A stretch of DNA of 64,000 nt. Source: Obelidium mucronatum (lineage: Eukaryota; Chytridiomycota; Chytridiomycetes; Chytridiales; Chytriomycetaceae). The stretch is from the NCBI GenBank assembly GCA_025765595.1, contig JAIVFH010000016.1, positions 1 through 64,000 of the forward strand. Direction: 5' to 3'. The notes below the pieces were generated by a model. It ran no database searches. It was not told the origin of the DNA and was given only the letters and a program-made list of their open reading frames with translations. Below are positions 8,967 through 50,643 of this stretch, in pieces (within the stretch, counting starts at the first letter, position 1; each line of letters starts with the position of its first letter). Position numbers and translations under genes: made by a program.

Positions 8967-9056
8967 CAAATGATCGGCCACAGTACTTTTTGAAATAGAA
9001 CCAAAATTCATTTGGTCTGAATGCAATGTAATGGTAGGGAAGGAAGTGAAAAATGC

Positions 9057-9127
9057 TCCCAGACGGGGAATTGAACCCCGGTCTCGCCCGTGACAGGGGC
9101 GGATACTGGCCACTATACTATCTGGGA
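9057..9127 (-). tRNA. tRNA-Asp (GTC)
   Basis: Read on the minus strand, a 71-nt cloverleaf forms without an intron. The acceptor stem is TCCCAGA paired with TCTGGGA (7 bp). The anticodon stem CGCCC/GGGCG encloses CTGTCAC with anticodon GTC. The T arm is CGGGG-TTCAATT-CCCCG. CCA is not encoded, as expected for a nuclear gene. It lies between the accessory island and the first conserved gene. Confidence 0.95.
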
Positions 9128-34674: not shown

Positions 34675-37600
34675 TCACATAAGGTCATTCAATATTTCAT
34701 CGTACCATTCACCATAAACCTCTCCATTGTAACGGACCCAAATTGCAACACGGTAACTGAAAGCTTCAAGTTCCGTGCGGACGACATCTAATCCCGCCTT
34801 ATCAAGACCCTCGCGTTTAAACGATCCACTGACAACATGCGTCTTGATACAAGCCTGCACACGACGTTTCAATAACCCAAACACAGGATCCTTTGTTGAC
34901 AAGGTCTTGTCAACCATGGTTCGAATAAGATCTTTGCGGGATTCCTCCAGTCCTTCCACAGTATCAACAGCTTCATGCTTCGCTACTGATCTCAACTTGG
35001 CCATTCTTTTCTCCACAACCAACCCGTCACAGCTTGCAATAATTTCCAAAGCTAAATTATCCACAGATAAGCCTTCTGGAGCCTTCAACATTGCCACAAG
35101 GCGATCCTTCAAATTAGCCAAGAACGCTTTATCTCCTCTGCCTTCAGTCACAATATTTTGAACAAGCATCAACAGAGCTGATATGATCACAATCATTTGT
35201 CCTTCGTTTTGGAAACTAAACACACGCGCACCATCCATTACCAACGTTTCAGCAATAGTATCTGGCGTGACAGCTGAATTGGAAAAGACAAGACCCAAAA
35301 GGGCATCATGCAAGATATCAGTGTATCGAACACGGTTCTCTGGTAAATCAATGTTTTCTGGATTACGGTCTTTGGCAGTCTGGACTTTTTGAGTTGTTGT
35401 GTGGGCAAGCCAAGTTTTGGTGCGAGGTAGCAATTCCGAGACTTTGCTCTTGTTGTTGTTGCTGTTGCTGGGCTTGATTTGGGCAAGAGACTGGCGGAAT
35501 TTTGACTTTTCGTATTCAACTGCTTGCGTTTTGAGATGTGGGCGCAACGTTTGCAACTTGTAGTTGGCCAAATCCAGCTTCATGTCATCGAGAACAATGA
35601 GAATCTGATCAAAGATGGGCACAAATGCCGCCGCTTCTGTTGCGGTGGACAACTCAGTCGTAATCTTCCGAATAGCCGCGTCTCGTAATGGAGCACATAA
35701 TTGAGACATTTTCGAGACAATGAATTGGAGAACTAACGGAAGGTTGAGAGTCTTGTTTTTGATTTGATGAGAGATGTAGGCAATGTCCAATGCTTCGTGA
35801 ATTTCGGCTGCAATTTTACCCTTTTCTGAAACCATGGCAATAAGTTGCTGTGTCGGGAATAATAGAGTCAGGCCTTTTGTACGAAACTTTGAAAAAGAAA
35901 TAAAAATGTGTGGGAACTCACATCTTTGATGTCATTCAAAAATTCGGGCACATGAGTTCCAAAATTGCCCTTGATAAAATCCTGTCTGACTTGATCGAAA
36001 AATGCCTTTCTTGCCATTTCACGCACACTTGCCTCCAAGTCACTCAAAGCAGGTTTCTTTAAGCTGAATTCAGGATCCAAGGTGAGTTCATGGGCCAACT
36101 TTTCATTTGTGAGCATGTCGCCAAAACCTGGCATATTGGACAAGGAATTCAATCGTTCCGTCGAAGGAGCAGTCGACAGACGAGGAGTTTCGACTTCTGG
36201 CTTCTGGGGCAAAATAACGTTCGCAGCTGCTGGCGAGGCTGATCGGGAACCTGCCCGTTGCGTTGGAGTCAAAGAGCGACGCCCTGTGGGTTGTGGCACA
36301 ATCACATTTGGTTTGGAGACTGAATCAGTTGCCGTCATGAGTTGCTGGACTCTTCCGGGGAAACGTTGTGGGCTCGTTGCCAGCAAGCTCGTCGACGGCG
36401 AAGGTGAAGGGGATGGTGAGCTTGATCTGTCGATTCTGCGTAAACCAGGAATAGTGACTCCTCCTCTTTCGTCCCCACTGCTTGCGCTTACTTCATCCAG
36501 AGACATTTGACCTACACCGCCAGTCAAATCTTCATCGTTATCAAGAAGGCCGAACTGAGCATGCAAGTCTTGACGGGCTTTTGAGAAGCGCTCCATAGCC
36601 TTATCGCCAAACTTTTGCAATCTTGCAAATATTTGTTGCTGTTGTTCTTCGACTCTTGGCTTCCATTGCACGTCTGCGTCGATTTGGTCCTTGACGGAGA
36701 GCCAAAGGTTTTCAAGTTCAAGATAATGACTAATGAGGCCATCTACAATCTTCATAGTATCACGTTCTTTCCACGTTTCAAACTTGTTATAGTATAAAAT
36801 CCATGCAGAAACCAGTTCAGTAGTTGCTGCTACTGAAAACGCCTTGGCAGGCGATGAGGTCGTGTTAATCCATAGTTCAAATTTGGTCAAGAGGTCTGAA
36901 GCAACACTTTTAACAGCCTGGCGAGTTTGTTTTAATATGGACGTTCCAAATTTTTGGTTGGTTTCATCTATACCTCTTCATCTTCACCCATAGTTGGCAT
37001 TATTTGTGCCGTGTGTGCAACAATCATGTACAAGCTCAAAAATACCCTTGCAGGGTTCTTCCAAGCTACAGAGGTAGTGCCAACTAACTGTAATAATCGG
37101 GTCAGCTTGAACAAACACACACAAACAAACAACAAAGAAAAGTCAGAATCGTTACTTGAGATGTGAAAGACTTAAAGTAAGAAATCATAATTGTAGCACT
37201 CCTGATAACTTGCTTGGATTGAACTACTTTGATAAGTTTCTCAAAGGGCAGCTGTTTGGCACGCTCAAGGGATAAATCAGCTTGTTTCCACTCCTTGATA
37301 ACTTTATCAGCAGCTTTGAGTCTCCACCAGTTTTGAATAGCGGTTGCTGAAGCAACATGAAGGCGCTCCGTTTCTTTTGGATCTATATTCTTGTGCAAAG
37401 ACCCTGTTTCAGTAGGGTCGAGAAGACGGGAACGTGGAATTGATTGGAGGTGACGTCTGCGAGCTTCCGAGGCACGGAGTCTGGACAAGTTTTATTTTAT
37501 TTTTTAGGTTACCTACATTAGGAAACAAAAAAAACATTTGTGGCAAAGATTATATACCTGTCTTCCAACTCTTTACGCAGGTTTGTTGTTTTCTCTGACG

Positions 37601-38135
37601 TTTTGTGTTTTTGCTGTGCCGCAATTTGCTTTGCGCGGGCAACTTTGGACGCATTGTTCTTGACCTGTGTGTGTTTCCAGACGTTGCAATCAGAATTACA
37701 TATTTTGTTTTTCGAACAAGAGATGGGGCGGGTTGGGGATAGATATGGCACCTGGTTGTCCAATAGAGTGGCACGGTTCTTTTCAGCCTTGTCAAGCGTT
37801 TCCATAATTTTGCGCCTCCCGTCAACATCACCGTCGGAATCCAAGACAGACTTTTTCGACAAATTCGCCGACATGACATTCTTGACATGCTTGTGACGCT
37901 TGGCAAGTTTTGAGCGTCTTGCTTCCATGAAGGAAGTGTTGGAACGAGTGCTGTGGAGGACATCATCATGTTGGGGATTCAAGGATGGCGCTGTTGCTCC
38001 AGAAGGTGAAGTGGACGACGTCAAACGAGAGGTTCTTCTCGCCTTGATTCGCTCGTCCAAGTGGAACGGCTTCTTTGACTTGTGCTTCAAGCTCAGAGCA
38101 TCAATTACGTAGAAACCAGACGACTGTTGTTCCAT
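34675..38135 (-). CDS. TCP11 (T-complex 11) family protein
   Basis: Multi-exon gene starting MEQQSSGFYVIDALSLKHKS at 38135. Basic and disordered N-terminal exons (to about 37,520) are followed by IQ-like helical segments (VASATAIQNWWRLKAADKVI near 37,330). A central exon (35,930-36,890) has a Ser/Pro-rich insert. The last exon starts near 35,860 and holds the TCP11 domain: KIAAEIHEALDIAYISHQIK, LCAPLRDAAIRKI, FEQ-type helix repeats and RYTDILHDALLGLVFSNS. The product ends GEWYDEILNDLM. TCP11 proteins modulate cAMP/PKA signalling in mammalian sperm (Sok1 in yeast); a similar role here is inference. Confidence 0.8.
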
Positions 38136-38532
38136 TTTTAGCTTTCTTCAAAGAGCTCTATTGAGATTTTGGGTGGCTGTTTTTTTATTAGTATCTGAAA
38201 CCTAGAAGCGTGTGTGTGTTTCGTGATTGGGGGTTCCACCCACCCTTTTTTTGGAACACCAATGTTGTAACCGAAGATTTAATCTATGCTGCTGAGTCTT
38301 TTCTTTCACCTTAAGTTTCGACAGAACGGATATAAAGCATTGGTCGTCAATGCCAAGTATTTATATAATGTGTCCATAATAAATGCACTGAAAAGAGATC
38401 TAAATTGAATGAGTAATGAAAGCAAGCAGTCGCTAGTTTTAATTCTTTTGCATCACTGAATATCGTTGTTGTTCAGCTGTGTTTATTGTTTATTTTCAGG
38501 AAAACCTTTTTGGGGTACGAAAGTCAGTCGAA
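38136..38532. promoter_or_regulatory. Divergent intergenic region upstream of TCP11 and uL15 genes
   Basis: This 397-bp region lies between the TCP11 start (minus) and the uL15 start codon (plus). It contains a TATA-like GATATAAAG near 38,329 and a GTGTGTGTTT run near 38,212. No open frame or RNA gene is evident. Confidence 0.4.
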
Positions 38533-39481
38533 ATGGTTAGCACATGTCCACCAACCCCCCATCCCAATCACCACAAACGACTGCCATCGACACCAAACAA
38601 CACCGTCTCATGCCTTGGATGTTTAAGATCGGATCATCAAGCTGGAGAACGGTTGCGATGGATGGACGGATGATACCTTCTCGAAGATGTCTCACCTCAT
38701 GACAGAAGGGCAGTAGATCTAACCAGCCTTTTCTTCTTTCCAAAGCCAACCAGATTGCACAAGAACAGAAAGGCCCGTGGTCGTGAGTATTTGGTTTCTA
38801 TTTCGTCGGACATACGGTCGTTAATCCTTGATGTGACTGCGATGGAACGAGGCTTGAGTACTCCAGGAAAATGAATGGAATTGGAGGCCGTCTAGTTGTA
38901 CAAGAGAAGCGGAAGAAGAAGAGCAGAAGTAGAAGACGGAAACAATTCTGGAACTTGGACTCGAAAATCATAAAAAACCGCACGAAAGACTAAATGCCCG
39001 ATCCAATAATCTAGACGTCTCTGCCGGACACGGTCGTGTTGGAAAGCACAGAAAGCATCCGGGAGGTCGTGGTCTTGCTGGTGGTCAACACCACCACAGA
39101 ATCAACATGGACAAGTACCACCCTGGTTACTTCGGTAAAGTCGGTATGCGTCACTTCCACTACACCAAGAACCAGTACCACTGCCCAACCTTGAACGTTG
39201 ACAAGTTGTGGACCTTGGTGCCCGCCGCTGACAGAGTTGCTGCCAAGAAGGCCCCAACTGGTGCCGTTCCAGTCATTGACTTGACCCGCAACGTATGGTT
39301 TTTTCAAATGGTTGTTTCTGGAAAAGGGATTCTTACTGTTTTATGTATCTAGAACGTGACCAAGCTCTTGGGTAAGGGACGTCTCCCATCAATTCCATTC
39401 ATTGTCAAGACCCGTTTGATCTCGCGCAGAGCCGAACTCAAGATTGTTGCCGCTGGTGGAAAGGTTGAGCTCGTGGCTTAA
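38533..39481 (+). CDS. RPL28: 60S ribosomal protein L28 (uL15; L27a)
   Basis: Large-subunit ribosomal protein. Four exons: 38533-38535 (the ATG alone), 38746-38782 ([12 protein letters not shown]), 39015-39292 and 39353-39481. The ATG is followed at once by GTTAGC, and CTTTCCAAAG precedes CCAACC. The donor GTGAGT at 38783 and acceptor CTAG at 39014 join C+AC into His, restoring [17 protein letters not shown]. The joined length is 148 residues, the usual size. Conserved blocks [20 protein letters not shown] and [20 protein letters not shown] are intact. The ending is GGKVELVA. An intron directly after the start codon is common for ribosomal protein genes. Confidence 0.93.
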
Positions 39482-39642
39482 ATATTACAAGCAATCTTTT
39501 TTAACTCGGAGACTGTGTAATTTTTGGCTGTGCTGCTGTTTTGTCGTCGGTTCCCTCTTTGGGCCATGCTTTTACGAAATAAAAGTCACTCAATGGTAAT
39601 AGCATGTAGTGTGTAATGTGTCAATAGTAGTTTTATTTGTCA

Positions 39643-40494
39643 TCATTCGTACGCCGGCAGCGAGTCCCCGGCAGCGCCCCGACGCGCCGCCTTCGCCTGC
39701 TCGCGGGTTGCGCGTGCGGCCAGCTTGGACTCCTCGAAGGCGCGACGCGCGGCGTTGTTGGCCTCGACGGCGGCCTTGTAGGCGGCCTCGCGCGCGACGG
39801 AGTTGATCTTCGAGGCGGCGGCGGCGGCGTCCGAGTCCGCGCGCGGCCGGTCGGCGGGCGGCGCGCCGTAGTCGACGCTGCCCTGCGACGCGTACTCGGC
39901 GGCCTGCGACAGCGGCCGCTGCCCGTGGCTGTGGCTGAGGCTGTGGCTGTGGCTGTGGCTCGCGCGCCAGCTGTCCGCCGCCGCGCCGTCGGGCGCCGGG
40001 ATCACGCCCGAGAACGAGTCCTGCGTGCGGAACGACGCCATGCTGTTGGTCGAGTTGTACGGGTCCGCAGGCATCGCTGGGTACGCCGGCGTCACCGTCA
40101 TGCGGACCACGGATGCCTTGGTCTGCTGCACCCACTTGAGGAGGGTGACCAATTCCTGGGGGTGATGGGTTGGTTGGTTGGTTACTTGTTGATGACGAGC
40201 AAGCAGCTAAGAGCAGCCAAGGTTACCGCATCCGAATCAATCAGAATCTGATCGCCATCTTCATCGAGGTAGTTCACAGAAACGGGTCCATTGATTCCAT
40301 GTAGACTTTTGATCTTGACACAATCAATCCATTAGGTAAAGTTCCAAATTGAATCTTGTCGCCCACAAATAGTCTCTAACCTCCGTTTCCAGTGCCTGCC
40401 ATGACTTTTGGTGCTCTTCAGTCAATGCACACTTGCGGATTGTTCCTGTGGGCCCAGTGATCTTGAATTGCACTCCTTCAACTCCAGCTAACAT
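39643..40494 (-). CDS. PB1-domain protein with disordered C-terminus
   Basis: The start at 40494 gives MLAGVEGVQFKITGPTGTIR. Spliced exons read LTEEHQKSWQALETE, IKSLHGINGPVSVNYLDEDG, DQILIDSDA and ELVTLLKWVQQTKASVVRMT. This is a PB1 ubiquitin-like fold with the acidic OPCA-type stretch YLDEDGDQILIDSDAEL, so it should pair with a basic PB1 partner. The rest is low complexity, with SHSHSHSLSHSHG coded by a CTGTGG-repeat tract at about 39,925-39,962 and an Ala/Lys/Arg helix near the end. The last exon is very GC-rich. Family beyond PB1 is unknown. Confidence 0.7.
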
Positions 40495-40841
40495 GAAACG
40501 ATTTTTTTTAAGCGGAACACTTCAAGAAAGGAGGCACAACATAGTTGGTAGTAATCCTCTTTTGGTCTTTCGATCTTTTCGTTCATGTGTGTGCGTGTAT
40601 ATTAGTGTGCGAGTGTGTGTGGTGAGTGCGTTCAAAGGGGCGCTCGTCAATAACGGTCGCTCTAATTACGATGCGGTGATCGTTTCTATTCAATTAAGAT
40701 CCATGAAATTTAACCAATTGATGATTGGAGTCGTGATATGGTTTGTTATTCAAAGAAATTTTGTTGATGTTTTCATTACAGTCAGTGGATTGAAATAAAA
40801 GGAACGAAGCTTCCATCTTTCCTCCCATAATTACCCTGAAA
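40495..40841. promoter_or_regulatory. Divergent intergenic region with GT-rich tract
   Basis: These 347 bp lie between the PB1 gene start (minus) and the secreted-type gene start (plus). A GT-rich tract (about 40,585-40,625) is present, and no gene was found. A signal-peptide exon for the plus gene was looked for here and not found. Confidence 0.35.
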
Positions 40842-42279
40842 ATGGCTTGCATTGTTACTCTTCCCTCAAACGCTCTATCTGCTACGGGCCTGTCAACACC
40901 TTGGACTGTCACTGGTTGTGACCAAACCAAAACACCAACGTAAGTGGCCAAACCACCTTTTTTTCTTGGGAATATTGCATATTTACTTTCTTCTATCTTG
41001 TAGATTCGCAGAATGTGTTGCAGTCAATAAACAAGGAATGATTGGTGTTTATTCACCGCTCATCGTGAATGAAGGAGCCAAGCCGAATGTGGACTTCCTA
41101 CCGCCAACACCTCTCACTCTACCCACTGACGCCGTAGTCGGTTGCTGGTTTGGCACCAACGGTGACATTACCCAGCTTGCAGATAAATCCAAGGGTGCAG
41201 ACCTCAAAGCCGCCAACTGCGTCAATGGAAAGCCAAATGCTCCACAGGACCTCTTTGGCCAGTTTGCAGCTTGTAACGCGGTTGCATTTTTTGCGTTAGC
41301 GAACAAGAAAGTTACTCCGCCACCCTTGGGCACGGGGAAAAACAATTTACCTTGCTACACTACGCGATCATTTCAAATCATTGACATGGATCCATCAGAC
41401 AATGTCGTAACCGCGTACCTGCAGGCCGGGAATATCATGGCGCAAAAAAACAAGGACAACATTGCGAAACTTGCTGCCAAGAACAATGGAAATCCACCAG
41501 ACGAGGTTTTGAATGGATCAGACAACTTGCTACTGAACGCCTTGTACCGTCCTGCCCTGGGTTGTGTCCCGTACACTGCCAAAAATCTCGCCGCTCCCAA
41601 AGACAATACGGAAATCGGAGCGCTTGCGTTAAACGAAATACAAGCGAGACTTCAAAGTGAGCCACAAGCATTAGTTCCACCAAACGATCCCATGGTTGTT
41701 CTGACTGCCAATGGCACATTTGATGTGACAAAACAAAACGCATATCGCGCGTCAGTAAACCAGCCCCCCTCCGTCAACGTTGAAGCCGAAAAGACTGCAT
41801 TTTGTCAAAACATGTTGGACATCCAAGCCTCTGGCTTCATCACGGACCTCAAATTCTTGATTGGACAACCGACACCTGACGCAGGCAACGGAAAAGATTT
41901 GTTCACATTCCTCGGGGCTCGATTTCAGTCTTCTTGGATGGGCCTTGGGTGCAACAATCTAGTGAAACTGGGAACCGATGCGACTGGAAAACCAATCTTG
42001 GAACCCATCACTGCCAATCGTGATGCTAACGGGGTCACTCAAAGTTTGACTTTCAACACGCCCAAGTTGCAAGCGTTGCTTGCTGCGAATGGCGGGAACG
42101 TTTCGGAAGCGCAAGGAGGAGGCGGCCTTACTCCTTCAACTCCCACCCCGACAGCAACGGATGGGGGTGCTGCCGCAGCTACAACCACCCCCAATGCAGG
42201 AACACCGACGCAAAACTCAATTACGACAGTTACCATCACAGTTGCACCCACCATCTCTGTGGTTGTGGTTACAGTTTGA
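40842..42279 (+). CDS. Secreted-type fungal protein, Cys-containing, Thr-rich tail
   Basis: The first exon from 40842 reads MACIVTLPSNALSATGLSTP and TPWTVTGCDQTKTPT. After a GTAAGT..CTTGTAG intron comes a single long exon: FAECVAVNKQGMIGVYSPLI, VVGCWFGTNGDITQL, CYTTRSFQIIDMDPSDNVV, GSDNLLLNALYRPALGCVPY and a Thr/Ala/Pro-rich tail ending APTISVVVVTV. The regular Cys spacing and the tail match a family of secreted or wall-bound fungal proteins of unknown function. No signal peptide is visible at this start; the true start may lie in an unseen upstream exon. The short hydrophobic end could be a GPI signal but is atypically short. Confidence 0.6.
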
Positions 42280-42341: not shown

Positions 42342-43948
<1,607 letters not shown>

Positions 43949-44177: not shown

Positions 44178-45548
<1,371 letters not shown>

Positions 45549-45618
45549 ATATTTTGGGAACGGTCACGACTACTATTTAGCTCTTTTTTTTTTGAAAAAC
45601 CTTTGCTGTATGAAATAT

Positions 45619-45627
45619 ACTTTATGC
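45619..45627. repeat. Left target-site duplication ACTTTATGC
   Basis: This 9-bp sequence directly abuts the left TIR terminus and is identical to 50635-50643, which abuts the right TIR. Confidence 0.85.
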
Positions 45628-46029
45628 TAGGCTCAGTGTCAGCCTTGCTCTCGGAACTCTCAAAAAGAAAAAATAAAAAAAATTTCCATTTTCGAGCCCC
45701 AGCGAGAAGGCTGATCGACAATCTTCAAAACCCGCCAACTCCATTTTTTGTAGCGGAAGAACCAGCGGATGGATCTTCCTCAAATTCGGCACAGGTGTAG
45801 TTCAACTTATTTTATTAGTTTTGGCGGCCTTTTGGCCACGTGTTTCTGACAGTTTCCGTTTGAATAGTGGGGCCGCGTTTCAGACGTCTCCAGTGGACTC
45901 AAAACACGCTATATGCTCCTATGTCTTGTTTTTTTTTCAGTATATCCAATATATCAACATATTCTATTACCGTTCGACACGTTGATTTGACCTGGAAATC
46001 ATTTTTTGTTCTGTCCGGAAACACATCAA
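45628..46029 (+). repeat. Left terminal inverted repeat (402 bp)
   Basis: The exact reverse complement lies at 50233-50634. Homology ends sharply at AACACATCAA, where the two genes diverge. The repeat contains a possible donor (CACAG/GTGTAG near 45,797), a T-rich tract and a CAG acceptor at 45,940, plus an in-frame ATG at 45,921. It could thus act as promoter, 5' UTR and leader for the gene on its side. Confidence 0.9.
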
Positions 46030-46055
46030 CTCAACTGAAATCAACAGTTGCATTT

Positions 46056-48554
46056 ATGATACGCGACAGCCGCGGGATGTTTCGGGGCAAGGCCGACCCA
46101 CTGACTCAAGATCCAAGCGACGTCGGTACTGAGTCCGAAACTTCACCTGAACGTAGCCACAGCCGCAAAAAGGCATCAGTTGGACTGGAAACTCCTCTTT
46201 CCAATCAACGCCCAACAAGAAACACATCAAATCCATTTTCGACCCATCAAATGGGTTGCCCAATCCCGTCCATGAGTTTGGAAGAGAGATTGAACGATTC
46301 TCGGGATGCCAATTTAGGATCATCCTTCACAACTCATTTACGTGCAACTGGACAATCAGAGCATTCTGCAAAATTCCGTGCAGCAATGGCAGCGGTAAAA
46401 TCGGCGGCTGCACAAAAAGCAAGCTTCAAATTTCCGGAAATTGAGGCTCGAGTGGCCATGTTGTCCATTGATGACCAGCTGCAACTGTTGCAGAATCTCT
46501 TCAACGCTTTGCCTCTTCCAAAGCAACGCGATTTTCTTTTGAATAATGCATCTGCTCTCTCGAAAATCGAAATCAAAGAATGCCTGAAGGTTGATATTGC
46601 TGCTCCAACCGTTGTTAACCGCTTGAATGTCAGTGTGCTTCTCGAATCTTGGGAGGCCAGTGCGCCCTTTATCTCGTCTCTCATCGGAATGCTTGTTGGA
46701 CATGAAAAACCAAAGCTTATTCTCATCCTTGGAATCATTCTTTTTTCTGCATCTCAGAAGTACAATCTTCTGCAGTCGGAGATTGGTTTGATCTTGTACT
46801 CTAATGGCGCTTCGCAGAATCTCGTAAAACTAATGAATAGTATGGGTGTATCAGTTGGAAATGATACAATTCTTGACCGGCTTGTTGACATGAAACAGCA
46901 AGCTCTCGATCTGATTCCAAAAACATTCCGTTCAAATAGTATTCTCTTGATCCACGACAATGTGGAGCGATACAACAAGACATACCAAAAGACTCAAGGA
47001 AACCAAAACCAGCTTGTGTCCCAAACGCTGCGTGGATTCATTCTTATCACACATGATCCAGCAATGCTACAACCCGCTGTGCCAATTAAGCCGCCATCAC
47101 CATCCAATATTGTTGCCGACGCTTGCGAGTTGGCCTGGTATCATTCTCAGACTTTTAATGAATTGTACAATCTCATCATCAAAGAATGCGCGGAGTTCAA
47201 AGACCTATCTTCAAGGCACAACCATCCTAACCGCCCCCATAGACCAACTGGTATCCTGCCTTTGCCCATTATGGACGAACAAGAAATGACTACCAATGGA
47301 TCCATTCGGATTGGGGAGCAATACACTAAAGACTTCAATATTCCGCACAACAAATGTATAAAAGTCCCTTTATTTGGAGATTTGGGGACAGTCACATCTG
47401 TTCGCTCTGCAATCAATGAGCGCAAACATGAGTGGGGTAGCTCTGATGTTGAGAAGCTGCAACACCTGATGCCCATCTATGGAGATTTTCATCTTGGAAT
47501 GGCCGTTGATAAAGCCCAAGTCTCCGCCATGGGCTGGGAGCCATCCTTTCCAGGAACTATTGCTTGGTTTGCTCGAATTCAAAACAAGAATATCAATGCC
47601 AAGAAAGCGACATTCTACGAGATGCAAGATGTGCTAAACGGCTCCCTTAGCGCCTATGTTGTTGCACTTGCGGACTCTATTACAGTGGATTACGCCAATG
47701 ACCTGTCGGAACTGCAGTCAGGTAGTCAAGAAAAGCTGGACTACATTGTGAATACTCTCCTGCTTCATGTTAACAGAGCAGTCTATCAATTGAAGCCGAT
47801 TGTAAACAAAGGAAAGCGTGCTACGGAGTATTCTCCTTTGGAAACCCACCCTTTCCGCAACTACATGCTGCAATTTATACGCTTGCGACTTCAATCATTG
47901 GTCTTCTACGATTGCATTCGCTATGGTGACGGAGAAGGCGTGAATATTATGCATAAGCTGTTCTTGCCATTGCTCAAGAGACACTCCAAAAAATACGCAC
48001 AGGGAACTGTGCGTCAGTTGTGGGATTTATCAATGATGACTCCTCGGGAACGAGGAATATGCGTACAAAACGCGTTTTTAAACTCAAAAGGACTTGTGAA
48101 CTCCTTTTTTCCCAATGACTTGGGAATGGAGCATGAAGTCCTTGCCATGAAGTCAGTTCAATCCAAAGCAGGAAGTAACCGCAACTGGAATCATACCCAA
48201 ACAATTTCTATGACTGCATCTCATGTCTGTAGCTTGACTAGCTCTCTTTTTGACCACTTGGACATTCCAAGAAGACGAGCATATCATCACGACGTGGATA
48301 CAAAAAAAGACAAGGAGACCATGATGTTTGATGTCAAATCTCAGATGAATCGAGTACAAGGCTACTTCAAAGTGGGTGAATATGCCTTTAAACCTGTGCT
48401 GGAAGTGGGTTACAAGGAGTTAGTCAAGGATGGATATATTGCTCGGCAACTGAAGAACTTTTTTTGTGGATCTGGGGATGAGGATGATATTGAGGAGTTA
48501 GATGAACGGGTGTTTGACGAGGATGGTGTTGAAATTTTTGATTTAACGAAATAA
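46056..48554 (+). CDS. DUF6589 protein, candidate transposase of the TIR element
   Basis: One uninterrupted frame of 832 residues from the first ATG outside the TIR (46056). The same frame is open back to an ATG at 45921 inside the TIR (877 residues). Resemblance to fungal DUF6589 proteins is recalled from the order LLIHDNVERYNKTYQKTQGN, the IMDEQEMTTNGSI segment, LMPIYGDFHLGMAVDKAQ and a following W..FPGTIAWF. Asp residues in HDN (about 46,955) and GDFH (about 47,484) could be two members of an RNase-H-type acidic triad; that is inference. The end is acidic (EDDIEELDERVFDEDGVEIF). No zinc finger is seen. DUF6589 has no established activity to my knowledge. Confidence 0.75.
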   Translation: MIRDSRGMFRGKADPLTQDPSDVGTESETSPERSHSRKKASVGLETPLSNQRPTRNTSNPFSTHQMGCPIPSMSLEERLNDSRDANLGSSFTTHLRATGQSEHSAKFRAAMAAVKSAAAQKASFKFPEIEARVAMLSIDDQLQLLQNLFNALPLPKQRDFLLNNASALSKIEIKECLKVDIAAPTVVNRLNVSVLLESWEASAPFISSLIGMLVGHEKPKLILILGIILFSASQKYNLLQSEIGLILYSNGASQNLVKLMNSMGVSVGNDTILDRLVDMKQQALDLIPKTFRSNSILLIHDNVERYNKTYQKTQGNQNQLVSQTLRGFILITHDPAMLQPAVPIKPPSPSNIVADACELAWYHSQTFNELYNLIIKECAEFKDLSSRHNHPNRPHRPTGILPLPIMDEQEMTTNGSIRIGEQYTKDFNIPHNKCIKVPLFGDLGTVTSVRSAINERKHEWGSSDVEKLQHLMPIYGDFHLGMAVDKAQVSAMGWEPSFPGTIAWFARIQNKNINAKKATFYEMQDVLNGSLSAYVVALADSITVDYANDLSELQSGSQEKLDYIVNTLLLHVNRAVYQLKPIVNKGKRATEYSPLETHPFRNYMLQFIRLRLQSLVFYDCIRYGDGEGVNIMHKLFLPLLKRHSKKYAQGTVRQLWDLSMMTPRERGICVQNAFLNSKGLVNSFFPNDLGMEHEVLAMKSVQSKAGSNRNWNHTQTISMTASHVCSLTSSLFDHLDIPRRRAYHHDVDTKKDKETMMFDVKSQMNRVQGYFKVGEYAFKPVLEVGYKELVKDGYIARQLKNFFCGSGDEDDIEELDERVFDEDGVEIFDLTK

Positions 48555-48577
48555 TAATTGCGTTACTTTTTATTTGG

Positions 48578-50233
48578 TCAATTCGGCATTTTCTTTAACT
48601 CCTTCAAATATGCAACAACAAGTGTTTTTGCTTCAATTTTCCATTTGTCTTCGAAACTATCAATCCAATCAACAAATGAGTCGAGAACCACACCCTTCAG
48701 ATCTCTGCAAATATCATCGATGACTTCCTGTGGGAATCTGCAAAGTCCCAACTCCCATGGTACTCCAATCAAACAGCTTTCCCGCCATTCTGACAGCTCC
48801 GAAAACAGTTTGATAGATTCTTCAACTGTCAATCCACATTGCGAGCGAATGTGCCTTTTTTGTTTGAGCAATGGAGTGTTGGAAACATATGGAATCAAGC
48901 CAGACTGTGCTATAGTTGGTTTACGAGACTCACAAGCATCACAGCACCGGTCATTTGGTACCGGATCAAGCCCCTTAAAGTACCCCAAAAGAACCTTCCT
49001 TCGGCAAACTGGATTTGAAGTTGAAGGTGTTGATGCAAAGAGAGAGTACACCTCTCTGTTGGTGGCCTTACTCTCCTTCAACGCCACAGAATCGCTTTTC
49101 TTGTCTGATAAATCCTGGAGGGAGTGGAAGAAGAGACAACGACTGGGCAATCCATCCCTTCCAGCCCTCCCAAATTCCTGGGCAGCATTGCAAAATGATA
49201 CTGGAGTCTTGTAATGAACAACAGTTCTAATTGAAGGATGGTCCAAGCCCTGGCCCAGCATTTGAGTGGTGCAAATAACCTTCAATTGATTAGGGTTTTC
49301 TCGAATCAGGCCTAGTACTGCGTTTTTGTGGGATTCCGAAGACAAGGCAGTTAAGTGAGTGAGCACGGGGGGGTAATTGGAGATGCCAGCTGAAAGGTAC
49401 GTGTAAATCTTGTTCAGTGTGGTCTTTGAATCGCAGAAGAGGACCAGAACAAATACACTCGGATCAAAAGTTTTTGTTTCGAGAGCTATTTTGATGAATC
49501 CAAGATCCTTTTGCATCTCCTTCCGCTCCTGGACATCGTAAAACAAGTTTGGCCGATCCACACACCCAATAATTTCGACAAATCCTGGTCTCAATCTCAG
49601 TCGATTGCACATCTTGTTGTACATTGACTTTGGAACCGTTGCTGAAGCTGCAATGAAAGGAATATCCTTGAAATGAACACGAATGTTCTCCAGATTCAAA
49701 TAGTCTTGTCTCCAAACATCTCCAGCGTTGGTCATTTCGTGCCATTCGTCTACTGCAATCGCGAACGCAAATTTTTGAATGACTTTGAGTATCTTCATGT
49801 CCTTTCCTCCAAGAATACTTGTTAAAAATTCCGGAGTCATCCACACAACATCAACATTTCCACTCTCAAGCAATTCCAGTGTTGAAGAATTCCCAATCTT
49901 GTTCATATCCAATGATCCAAAGGCTGCCGGTCGAAGGGGTATGTCTGATTTCTCCAAATTTGCCATTTGGTCAATCATGATTGCCAAGAGTGGAGATATA
50001 ATGAACAAAACCGATTTTCGATCACCAGAATCCACCATTCTTTGCATGTGAGCCAGCAGAGACAGGTAAAAAGTGTACGTCTTGCCTCCGCCGGTCCTTT
50101 GAATCAATACGCAGTCTTTCCCATTCAACACAGCCTTGACGCAAGCAATTTGATAGTCACGAGGAGCACTCTCGTAGTACTTGGCGGTTAGCAGGATGCA
50201 GACTTCCAAGATGGGATCATGTTCTAGTGACAT
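48578..50233 (-). CDS. RecQ-family DNA helicase of the TIR element
   Basis: The start at 50233 (MSLEHDPILEVCILLTAKYY, 551 residues) uses an ATG whose first base is the last base of the right TIR. The frame also extends to an ATG at 50341 in the TIR (587 residues). All superfamily 2 motifs are present: Q-motif region PRDYQIACVKAVLNGKD, Walker A QRTGGGKT, Ia ISPLLAIMIDQM, Ib WMTPEF, II as DEWH, III SATV, V TTQMLGQGLDHPSI and VI QEFGRAGRDG. A RecQ-type zinc module follows (CRRKVLLGYF...CCDAC). DEWH instead of DEAH/DECH is unusual. No HRDC domain is visible. It probably works with the DUF6589 protein in excision or replication of the element (inference). Confidence 0.88.
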   Translation of the reverse strand: MSLEHDPILEVCILLTAKYYESAPRDYQIACVKAVLNGKDCVLIQRTGGGKTYTFYLSLLAHMQRMVDSGDRKSVLFIISPLLAIMIDQMANLEKSDIPLRPAAFGSLDMNKIGNSSTLELLESGNVDVVWMTPEFLTSILGGKDMKILKVIQKFAFAIAVDEWHEMTNAGDVWRQDYLNLENIRVHFKDIPFIAASATVPKSMYNKMCNRLRLRPGFVEIIGCVDRPNLFYDVQERKEMQKDLGFIKIALETKTFDPSVFVLVLFCDSKTTLNKIYTYLSAGISNYPPVLTHLTALSSESHKNAVLGLIRENPNQLKVICTTQMLGQGLDHPSIRTVVHYKTPVSFCNAAQEFGRAGRDGLPSRCLFFHSLQDLSDKKSDSVALKESKATNREVYSLFASTPSTSNPVCRRKVLLGYFKGLDPVPNDRCCDACESRKPTIAQSGLIPYVSNTPLLKQKRHIRSQCGLTVEESIKLFSELSEWRESCLIGVPWELGLCRFPQEVIDDICRDLKGVVLDSFVDWIDSFEDKWKIEAKTLVVAYLKELKKMPN

Positions 50234-50634
50234 TGATGTGTTTCCGGACAGAACAAAAAATGATTTCCAGGTCAAATCAACGTGTCGAACGGTAATAGAA
50301 TATGTTGATATATTGGATATACTGAAAAAAAAACAAGACATAGGAGCATATAGCGTGTTTTGAGTCCACTGGAGACGTCTGAAACGCGGCCCCACTATTC
50401 AAACGGAAACTGTCAGAAACACGTGGCCAAAAGGCCGCCAAAACTAATAAAATAAGTTGAACTACACCTGTGCCGAATTTGAGGAAGATCCATCCGCTGG
50501 TTCTTCCGCTACAAAAAATGGAGTTGGCGGGTTTTGAAGATTGTCGATCAGCCTTCTCGCTGGGGCTCGAAAATGGAAATTTTTTTTATTTTTTCTTTTT
50601 GAGAGTTCCGAGAGCAAGGCTGACACTGAGCCTA
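50233..50634 (-). repeat. Right terminal inverted repeat (402 bp)
   Basis: Reverse complement of the left TIR with no difference noticed. It encodes the same in-phase leader on the helicase side, with its ATG at 50341. Confidence 0.9.
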
Positions 50635-50643
50635 ACTTTATGC
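50635..50643. repeat. Right target-site duplication ACTTTATGC
   Basis: Identical to 45619-45627 and directly adjacent to the right TIR terminus. Confidence 0.85.

Follow-up and report, generated by a model that had tools for sequence, protein, structure and literature searches.

We analyzed a window of 64,000 nt from Obelidium mucronatum (contig JAIVFH010000016.1, here contig 16, positions 1 to 64,000 of the forward strand), in which an element of 5,007 bp occupies positions 45628 to 50634. The element is bounded by terminal inverted repeats (TIRs) of 402 bp, at 45628 to 46029 on the plus strand and at 50233 to 50634 on the minus strand, whose arms are 100% complementary. Exact copies of the 9-bp target duplication ACTTTATGC flank the left end (45619 to 45627) and the right end (50635 to 50643). 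The terminal 17 bp of the left arm, TAGGCTCAGTGTCAGCC, contain the dyad GGCT-N7-AGCC (45628 to 45644, plus strand), and motif search located the right copy at 50618 to 50634 on the minus strand.

The element carries two convergent genes whose stop codons are separated by 23 bp (48555 to 48577). The first, at 46056 to 48554 on the plus strand, encodes a protein of 832 amino acids that matches the Pfam family DUF6589 (PF20231, E = 1.8e-36; score of 126 bits, cut-off of 27). The second, at 48578 to 50233 on the minus strand, has a start codon that begins at the inner edge of the right TIR and encodes a RecQ-type superfamily 2 helicase of 551 amino acids, with Pfam matches to DEAD (1e-19), Helicase_C (1.8e-8) and ResIII. 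A first-pass annotation of the window had recorded TIRs without mismatch, a perfect duplication and two intact genes, one of them a helicase and the other labeled DUF6589 from family motifs; all of these observations held up, the two protein assignments now by profile search.

Near-identical copies in the genome

We searched the genome assembly (48.3 Mb, 694 contigs) for relatives of the window element. Each of its proteins, used as the query, identified 13 full-length loci of the same family (family A), and the 402-bp TIR arm matched 34 places. The expectation that a sequence search would recover further copies with matching TIRs and other 9-bp duplications was thus borne out by 12 additional full-length copies. 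Nine of these match the window element at every position of its 5,007 bp, two have one base difference and one is older; with the window copy included, 12 of the 13 lie within one base of the window sequence. The older copy (L020, contig 15, 5,005 bp) differs from the window element in 21 alignment columns, and its differing codons comprise four synonymous and three replacement changes in the DUF6589 gene and six synonymous and two replacement changes in the helicase gene. The counts of 19 elements given below exclude decayed or partial pieces on contigs 182, 128, 33, 137 and 412, a piece on contig 179, and short derivatives. Two decayed family A copies (L022 and L023) occupy contig 182 at 36344 to 41393 in head-to-head orientation, with about 1.1 kb between them. 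An in-frame TAG stop occurs in the same stretch of both copies, and the arrangement represents either an inverted duplication of large size or an artifact of assembly.

Target duplications and empty sites

An exact 9-bp duplication, of varying sequence, was present at 16 of the 19 elements: 11 of 13 in family A, both of those in family B, the single elements of families D, E and F, and not the single element of family C (0/1). Element ends were set from repeat comparison in families A and E, from the terminal motif in families B, C and D, and by eye with the duplication in view in family F, so the family F duplication is not independent. At L030 and L032, shifting the element end would give a 10-bp duplication. 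The duplication begins with a purine (A or G) in 15 of 16 cases and ends with a pyrimidine (C or T) in 11. The 13 full-length loci recovered with both proteins, together with exact duplications of differing sequence in family A and across all families, indicate that the window structure is no chance product.

The three elements at which no 9-bp duplication was found lie on contigs 283, 25 and 66. The left flank of the contig 283 copy matches contigs 406 and 55, and its right flank matches contigs 119 and 522; this copy therefore appears to join two places, by recombination or misassembly. In the contig 66 element (family C), the terminal 17 bp occur twice in tandem at the left end (L031:1883-1916).

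Searches with the flanks of four insertion sites found a second contig for three (contig 107, 98%; contig 46, 97%; contig 106, 95%) and none for the window insertion site; the contig 606 flank had a further match to contig 254 (96%). In all three second contigs the element was absent and the target was present once, with one base difference inside the target at one site and small gaps beside it at two. These contigs may represent the other haplotype or duplicated regions. Near-identical contig pairs (606/107, 368/46, 277/106, 219/558 and 20/470) likewise look as if they were assembled haplotypes or duplicated regions.

Could these loci be a dead or non-transposon repeat, in which recombination has spread a duplicated pair of genes along with its inverted flanks? 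The three elements lacking a duplication and the differently matching flanks of the contig 283 copy would fit such an origin, but precise ends, 16 different 9-bp duplications and clean empty sites contradict it, and we consider it highly improbable. The initial view of an intact, recently inserted transposon is upheld by the zero or one differences in 11 of the 12 other family A copies and by the three empty sites. The window element is a real, complete and recently active DNA transposon. Near-identical, apparently intact copies with empty sites are a new point, and they make testable both the role of a RecQ helicase in a transposon and the means by which long TIR arms remain identical.

The duplications also bear on an assignment to KolobokH, a Kolobok lineage with a RecQ helicase in fungi. 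Kolobok elements insert at TTAA, whereas the 9-bp targets in the group of the window element are varied, which contradicts this assignment. The likeness lies in the RecQ helicase within a fungal DNA transposon: passages of PMC9587614 describe KolobokH as encoding a RecQ helicase and as found only in fungi, with RecQ on the complementary strand in Kolobok-1_CCri. In KolobokH, however, RecQ lies downstream of the transposase domain, whereas it forms a separate convergent gene in the window element, and a KolobokH identity can practically be set aside.

Divergent families and pairing of the two genes

Five further families, comprising six elements, share the layout of family A: family B on contig 5 (L029 and L030, one base apart), family C on contig 66 (L031), family D on contig 93 (L032), family E on contig 180 (L033) and family F on contig 5 near 190 kb (L034). 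Their DUF6589 proteins are 21 to 33% identical to that of the window, those of families C, E and F being compared as partial frames, and their helicases are 26 to 37% identical. The DUF6589 frames of families C, E and F are each split once. A PF20231 profile search of the genome gave 22 matches, 21 of them above the cut-off; 19 are element loci, and the remaining three are fragments, of which two lie on contig 182 and one, under the cut-off, on contig 179. A convergent helicase gene was present at all 19 DUF6589 element loci, with no unlinked element locus, so the pairing first noticed in the window is fixed.

Trees of the DUF6589 proteins and of the helicases both group families E and F (supports of 95 and 72) and families D, E and F (62 and 88). 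They differ elsewhere, the DUF6589 tree joining B and C (support of 90) and the helicase tree joining A and C (support of 40). Between family pairs, dS was saturated and gave no estimate in 11 of 12 comparisons and was 5.7 in one, against dN of 0.70 to 0.84. Selection has thus maintained both proteins.

Six acidic residues of the DUF6589 protein (D301, D442, D625, D688, E692 and E783) are invariant in all six families. A hydrophobic run ends at each of D301 and D442, and E692 follows D442 by 250 residues; this layout would suit a DDE core that carries an insertion domain. The protein is probably a DDE transposase, with D301, D442 and either E692 or D688 as candidate catalytic residues; the choice is not unique, since D625, D688 and E783 are invariant besides the triad D301, D442 and E692. 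A single-sequence AlphaFold2 model of the 832-residue window protein was uninformative about the fold (mean pLDDT of 36, pTM of 0.23). Searches of solved structures returned 9 and 3 weak matches (E of 0.45 or worse), which we did not believe. With the single protein and a six-sequence alignment as queries, no homolog at E <= 0.001 was found among 8000 candidates scored from a large protein collection, and viral contigs contained no relatives. Profile scans of six DUF6589 proteins revealed no other transposase family at E values up to 10, and DUF6589 alone was common to all six. A weak PHD-finger match (E of 0.015) in one of the six probably belongs to the family F protein (L034:4474-6081), whose C terminus is rich in cysteine. 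We did not find DUF6589 named in the literature searched, and the tie between this unnamed protein family and a helicase-carrying kind of transposon is a new point.

In the helicase, a RecQ zinc-binding match fell below the Pfam cut-off, and there was no RQC or HRDC match in Pfam. Its best relatives of solved structure are BLM, bacterial RecQ and WRN. The best match in the large protein collection was 29% identical, and the named matches among the 120 listed were mostly RecQ. The helicase may serve as a strand-handling helper in transposition.

Terminal motif and start codons

Between families A, B and C, only the first 17 to 24 bp of the TIRs are alignable, the terminal 17 bp being common to all three; comparisons of the TIRs of families D, E and F with those of other families gave nothing alignable. 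The genome contains the 17-mer TAGGCTCAGTGTCAGCC at 47 places without mismatch and at 3 with a single mismatch, and a reversed control at none. One end of family D has GGCT/AGCC and the other has AGCT in place of AGCC, while family E and the better end of family F have GTCT/AGAC, changed on both sides of the dyad. The terminal 17 bp are a probable transposase site. The single-strand stability of the palindrome is modest (-1.6 to -2.7 kcal/mol, with 5 to 26 of 200 shuffles folding as well), and a protein-binding dyad is therefore as likely as a hairpin role. Short gene-less derivatives with the 17-bp ends of the element were also observed: one of 144 bp on contig 376 (L038), without a 9-bp duplication, and two of 79 bp, on contig 219 (L041) and contig 558 (L043), each flanked by 9-mers that match at 7 of 9 positions.

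In family A, with its 402-bp TIR, one gene starts after 401 bp and the other after 428 bp; the corresponding values in family C, whose TIR is 354 bp long, are 350 and 355 bp. Within the 456-bp TIR of family B, the DUF6589 gene starts after 447 bp and helicase ATGs lie after 337, 394 and 415 bp; start codon positions in families D and E are less clear. Since start codons lie at or near its inner edge, the TIR probably holds promoters for both genes, and the left TIR is probably the promoter and leader of the DUF6589 gene too. We also considered a TIR-encoded leader common to both proteins. In family A both frames continue without a stop as far as an ATG lying 293 bp in from the ends; no such leader was seen for both genes in families B and C, and we do not claim one.

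This arrangement recalls maize MuDR, in which TIRs of about 200 bp provide the promoters for a pair of genes and integration requires the second gene (in passages of PMC8224964). Mu elements generate 9-bp duplications (PMC2774946). The window element shares the 9-bp duplication, the two genes and long TIRs, with promoters that we infer from the start codons, and might on these grounds be a Mutator-like element with a helicase as its second gene. However, that second gene differs from the one in MuDR, and the transposase candidate is DUF6589, for which the scan of six proteins gave no MULE profile. We consider a Mutator-like identity very unlikely.

Concerted change of the TIR arms

Arm-to-arm identity is 100% in the window copy, L020 and L029, 99.8% in L030, 99.7% in L031, 99.5% in L033 and 95.4%, with 12 gap positions, in L032; in family F it is 87% over 87 bp. 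Three differences per arm separate the window copy from L020, namely substitutions at mirrored positions 267 and 300 and the loss of one A from the run at 48 to 55. As the arms of L020 are identical to each other, these changes are present in both arms. Unshared single changes were found in L030 and L031 (one each) and in the right arm of L013, which indicates that arm copying is not immediate. The arms may be kept identical by copying during transposition or by later gene conversion; the three shared changes are a small sample. Concerted change of the two TIR arms is itself a new point.

It is also conceivable, though unlikely, that transposition itself rewrites one arm from the other: the RecQ helicase would expose or unwind the arms and one would template the other, by way of an intermediate that is either a hairpin or a strand-copying form, and DUF6589 would make up a transposase class of its own. 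If true, this would hold about 400 bp identical inside every element although everything beyond the outer 17 to 24 bp diverges between families, and a eukaryotic TIR transposon would have a self-templated or replicative route.

Classification and proposed mechanism

Kojima reportedly distinguished, in 2020, an AcademH lineage of the Academ superfamily. AcademH is an already described, little-studied transposon group: passages of PMC10045372 credit it with a helicase and 9- or 10-bp duplications, as against a nuclease and 3- or 4-bp duplications in AcademX, and passages of PMC3627910 report a RecQ helicase in Academ. In view of these descriptions, the initial statement that no characterized class fits the gene pair is not supported. 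The elements described here are likewise helicase-encoding TIR transposons of a fungus, with 9-bp duplications at 16 of 19 elements and a RecQ-type helicase at 19 of 19 loci; they differ in their chytrid host, which lies outside the Basidiomycota, Ascomycota and Mucoromycota named for AcademH in passages of PMC10799480. AcademX was rejected on the length of the duplication and because no nuclease profile (Pfam) was found in either window protein. We therefore favor, with a probability of about 80%, the reading that the window element is a DNA transposon of the AcademH kind, autonomous and mobile until recently, AcademH being known here by description in citing papers. Excerpts of PMC10045372, PMC10799480, PMC9587614 and PMC3627910 mention no experimental test of AcademH transposition.

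Alternatively, the elements could form a separate superfamily, neither Academ nor Mutator, whose DUF6589 transposase and RecQ helicase have converged on the duplication length and accessory enzyme of AcademH. This would accord with the absence of the DUF6589 name from the literature searched, with the lack of a Pfam match to another transposase family and with an Academ link drawn from descriptions in citing papers. On the other hand, two independent features, the RecQ helicase and the 9-bp duplication, coincide with AcademH, and we judge a separate superfamily to be quite unlikely.

For a transposon of the AcademH kind, we propose that the DUF6589 protein, as a DDE-type transposase, would bind the palindromic 17-bp terminus (TA-GGCT-N7-AGCC), cut the ends and join them with a stagger of 9 bp. 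Promoter and leader would be common to both genes and lie in the long TIR. During transposition or its repair, the RecQ-type helicase would separate strands, either at the element ends or in the gapped product, and inter-arm copying during this helicase step, or later gene conversion, would keep the arms identical.

Genomic neighborhood

Two tandem DAHP synthase gene regions lie in the window at 43215 to 43905 and at 45028 to 45627, with matched pieces 77 to 85% alike, and the transposon lies about 80 bp downstream of the stop codon of the second gene. Split genes point to a eukaryotic host. The best solved-structure match of the neighboring DAHP synthase exon was 1hfb, a tyrosine-regulated enzyme that we take to be from yeast. 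The sole tRNA found in the window is a tRNA-Asp with the anticodon GTC, at 9055 to 9127.
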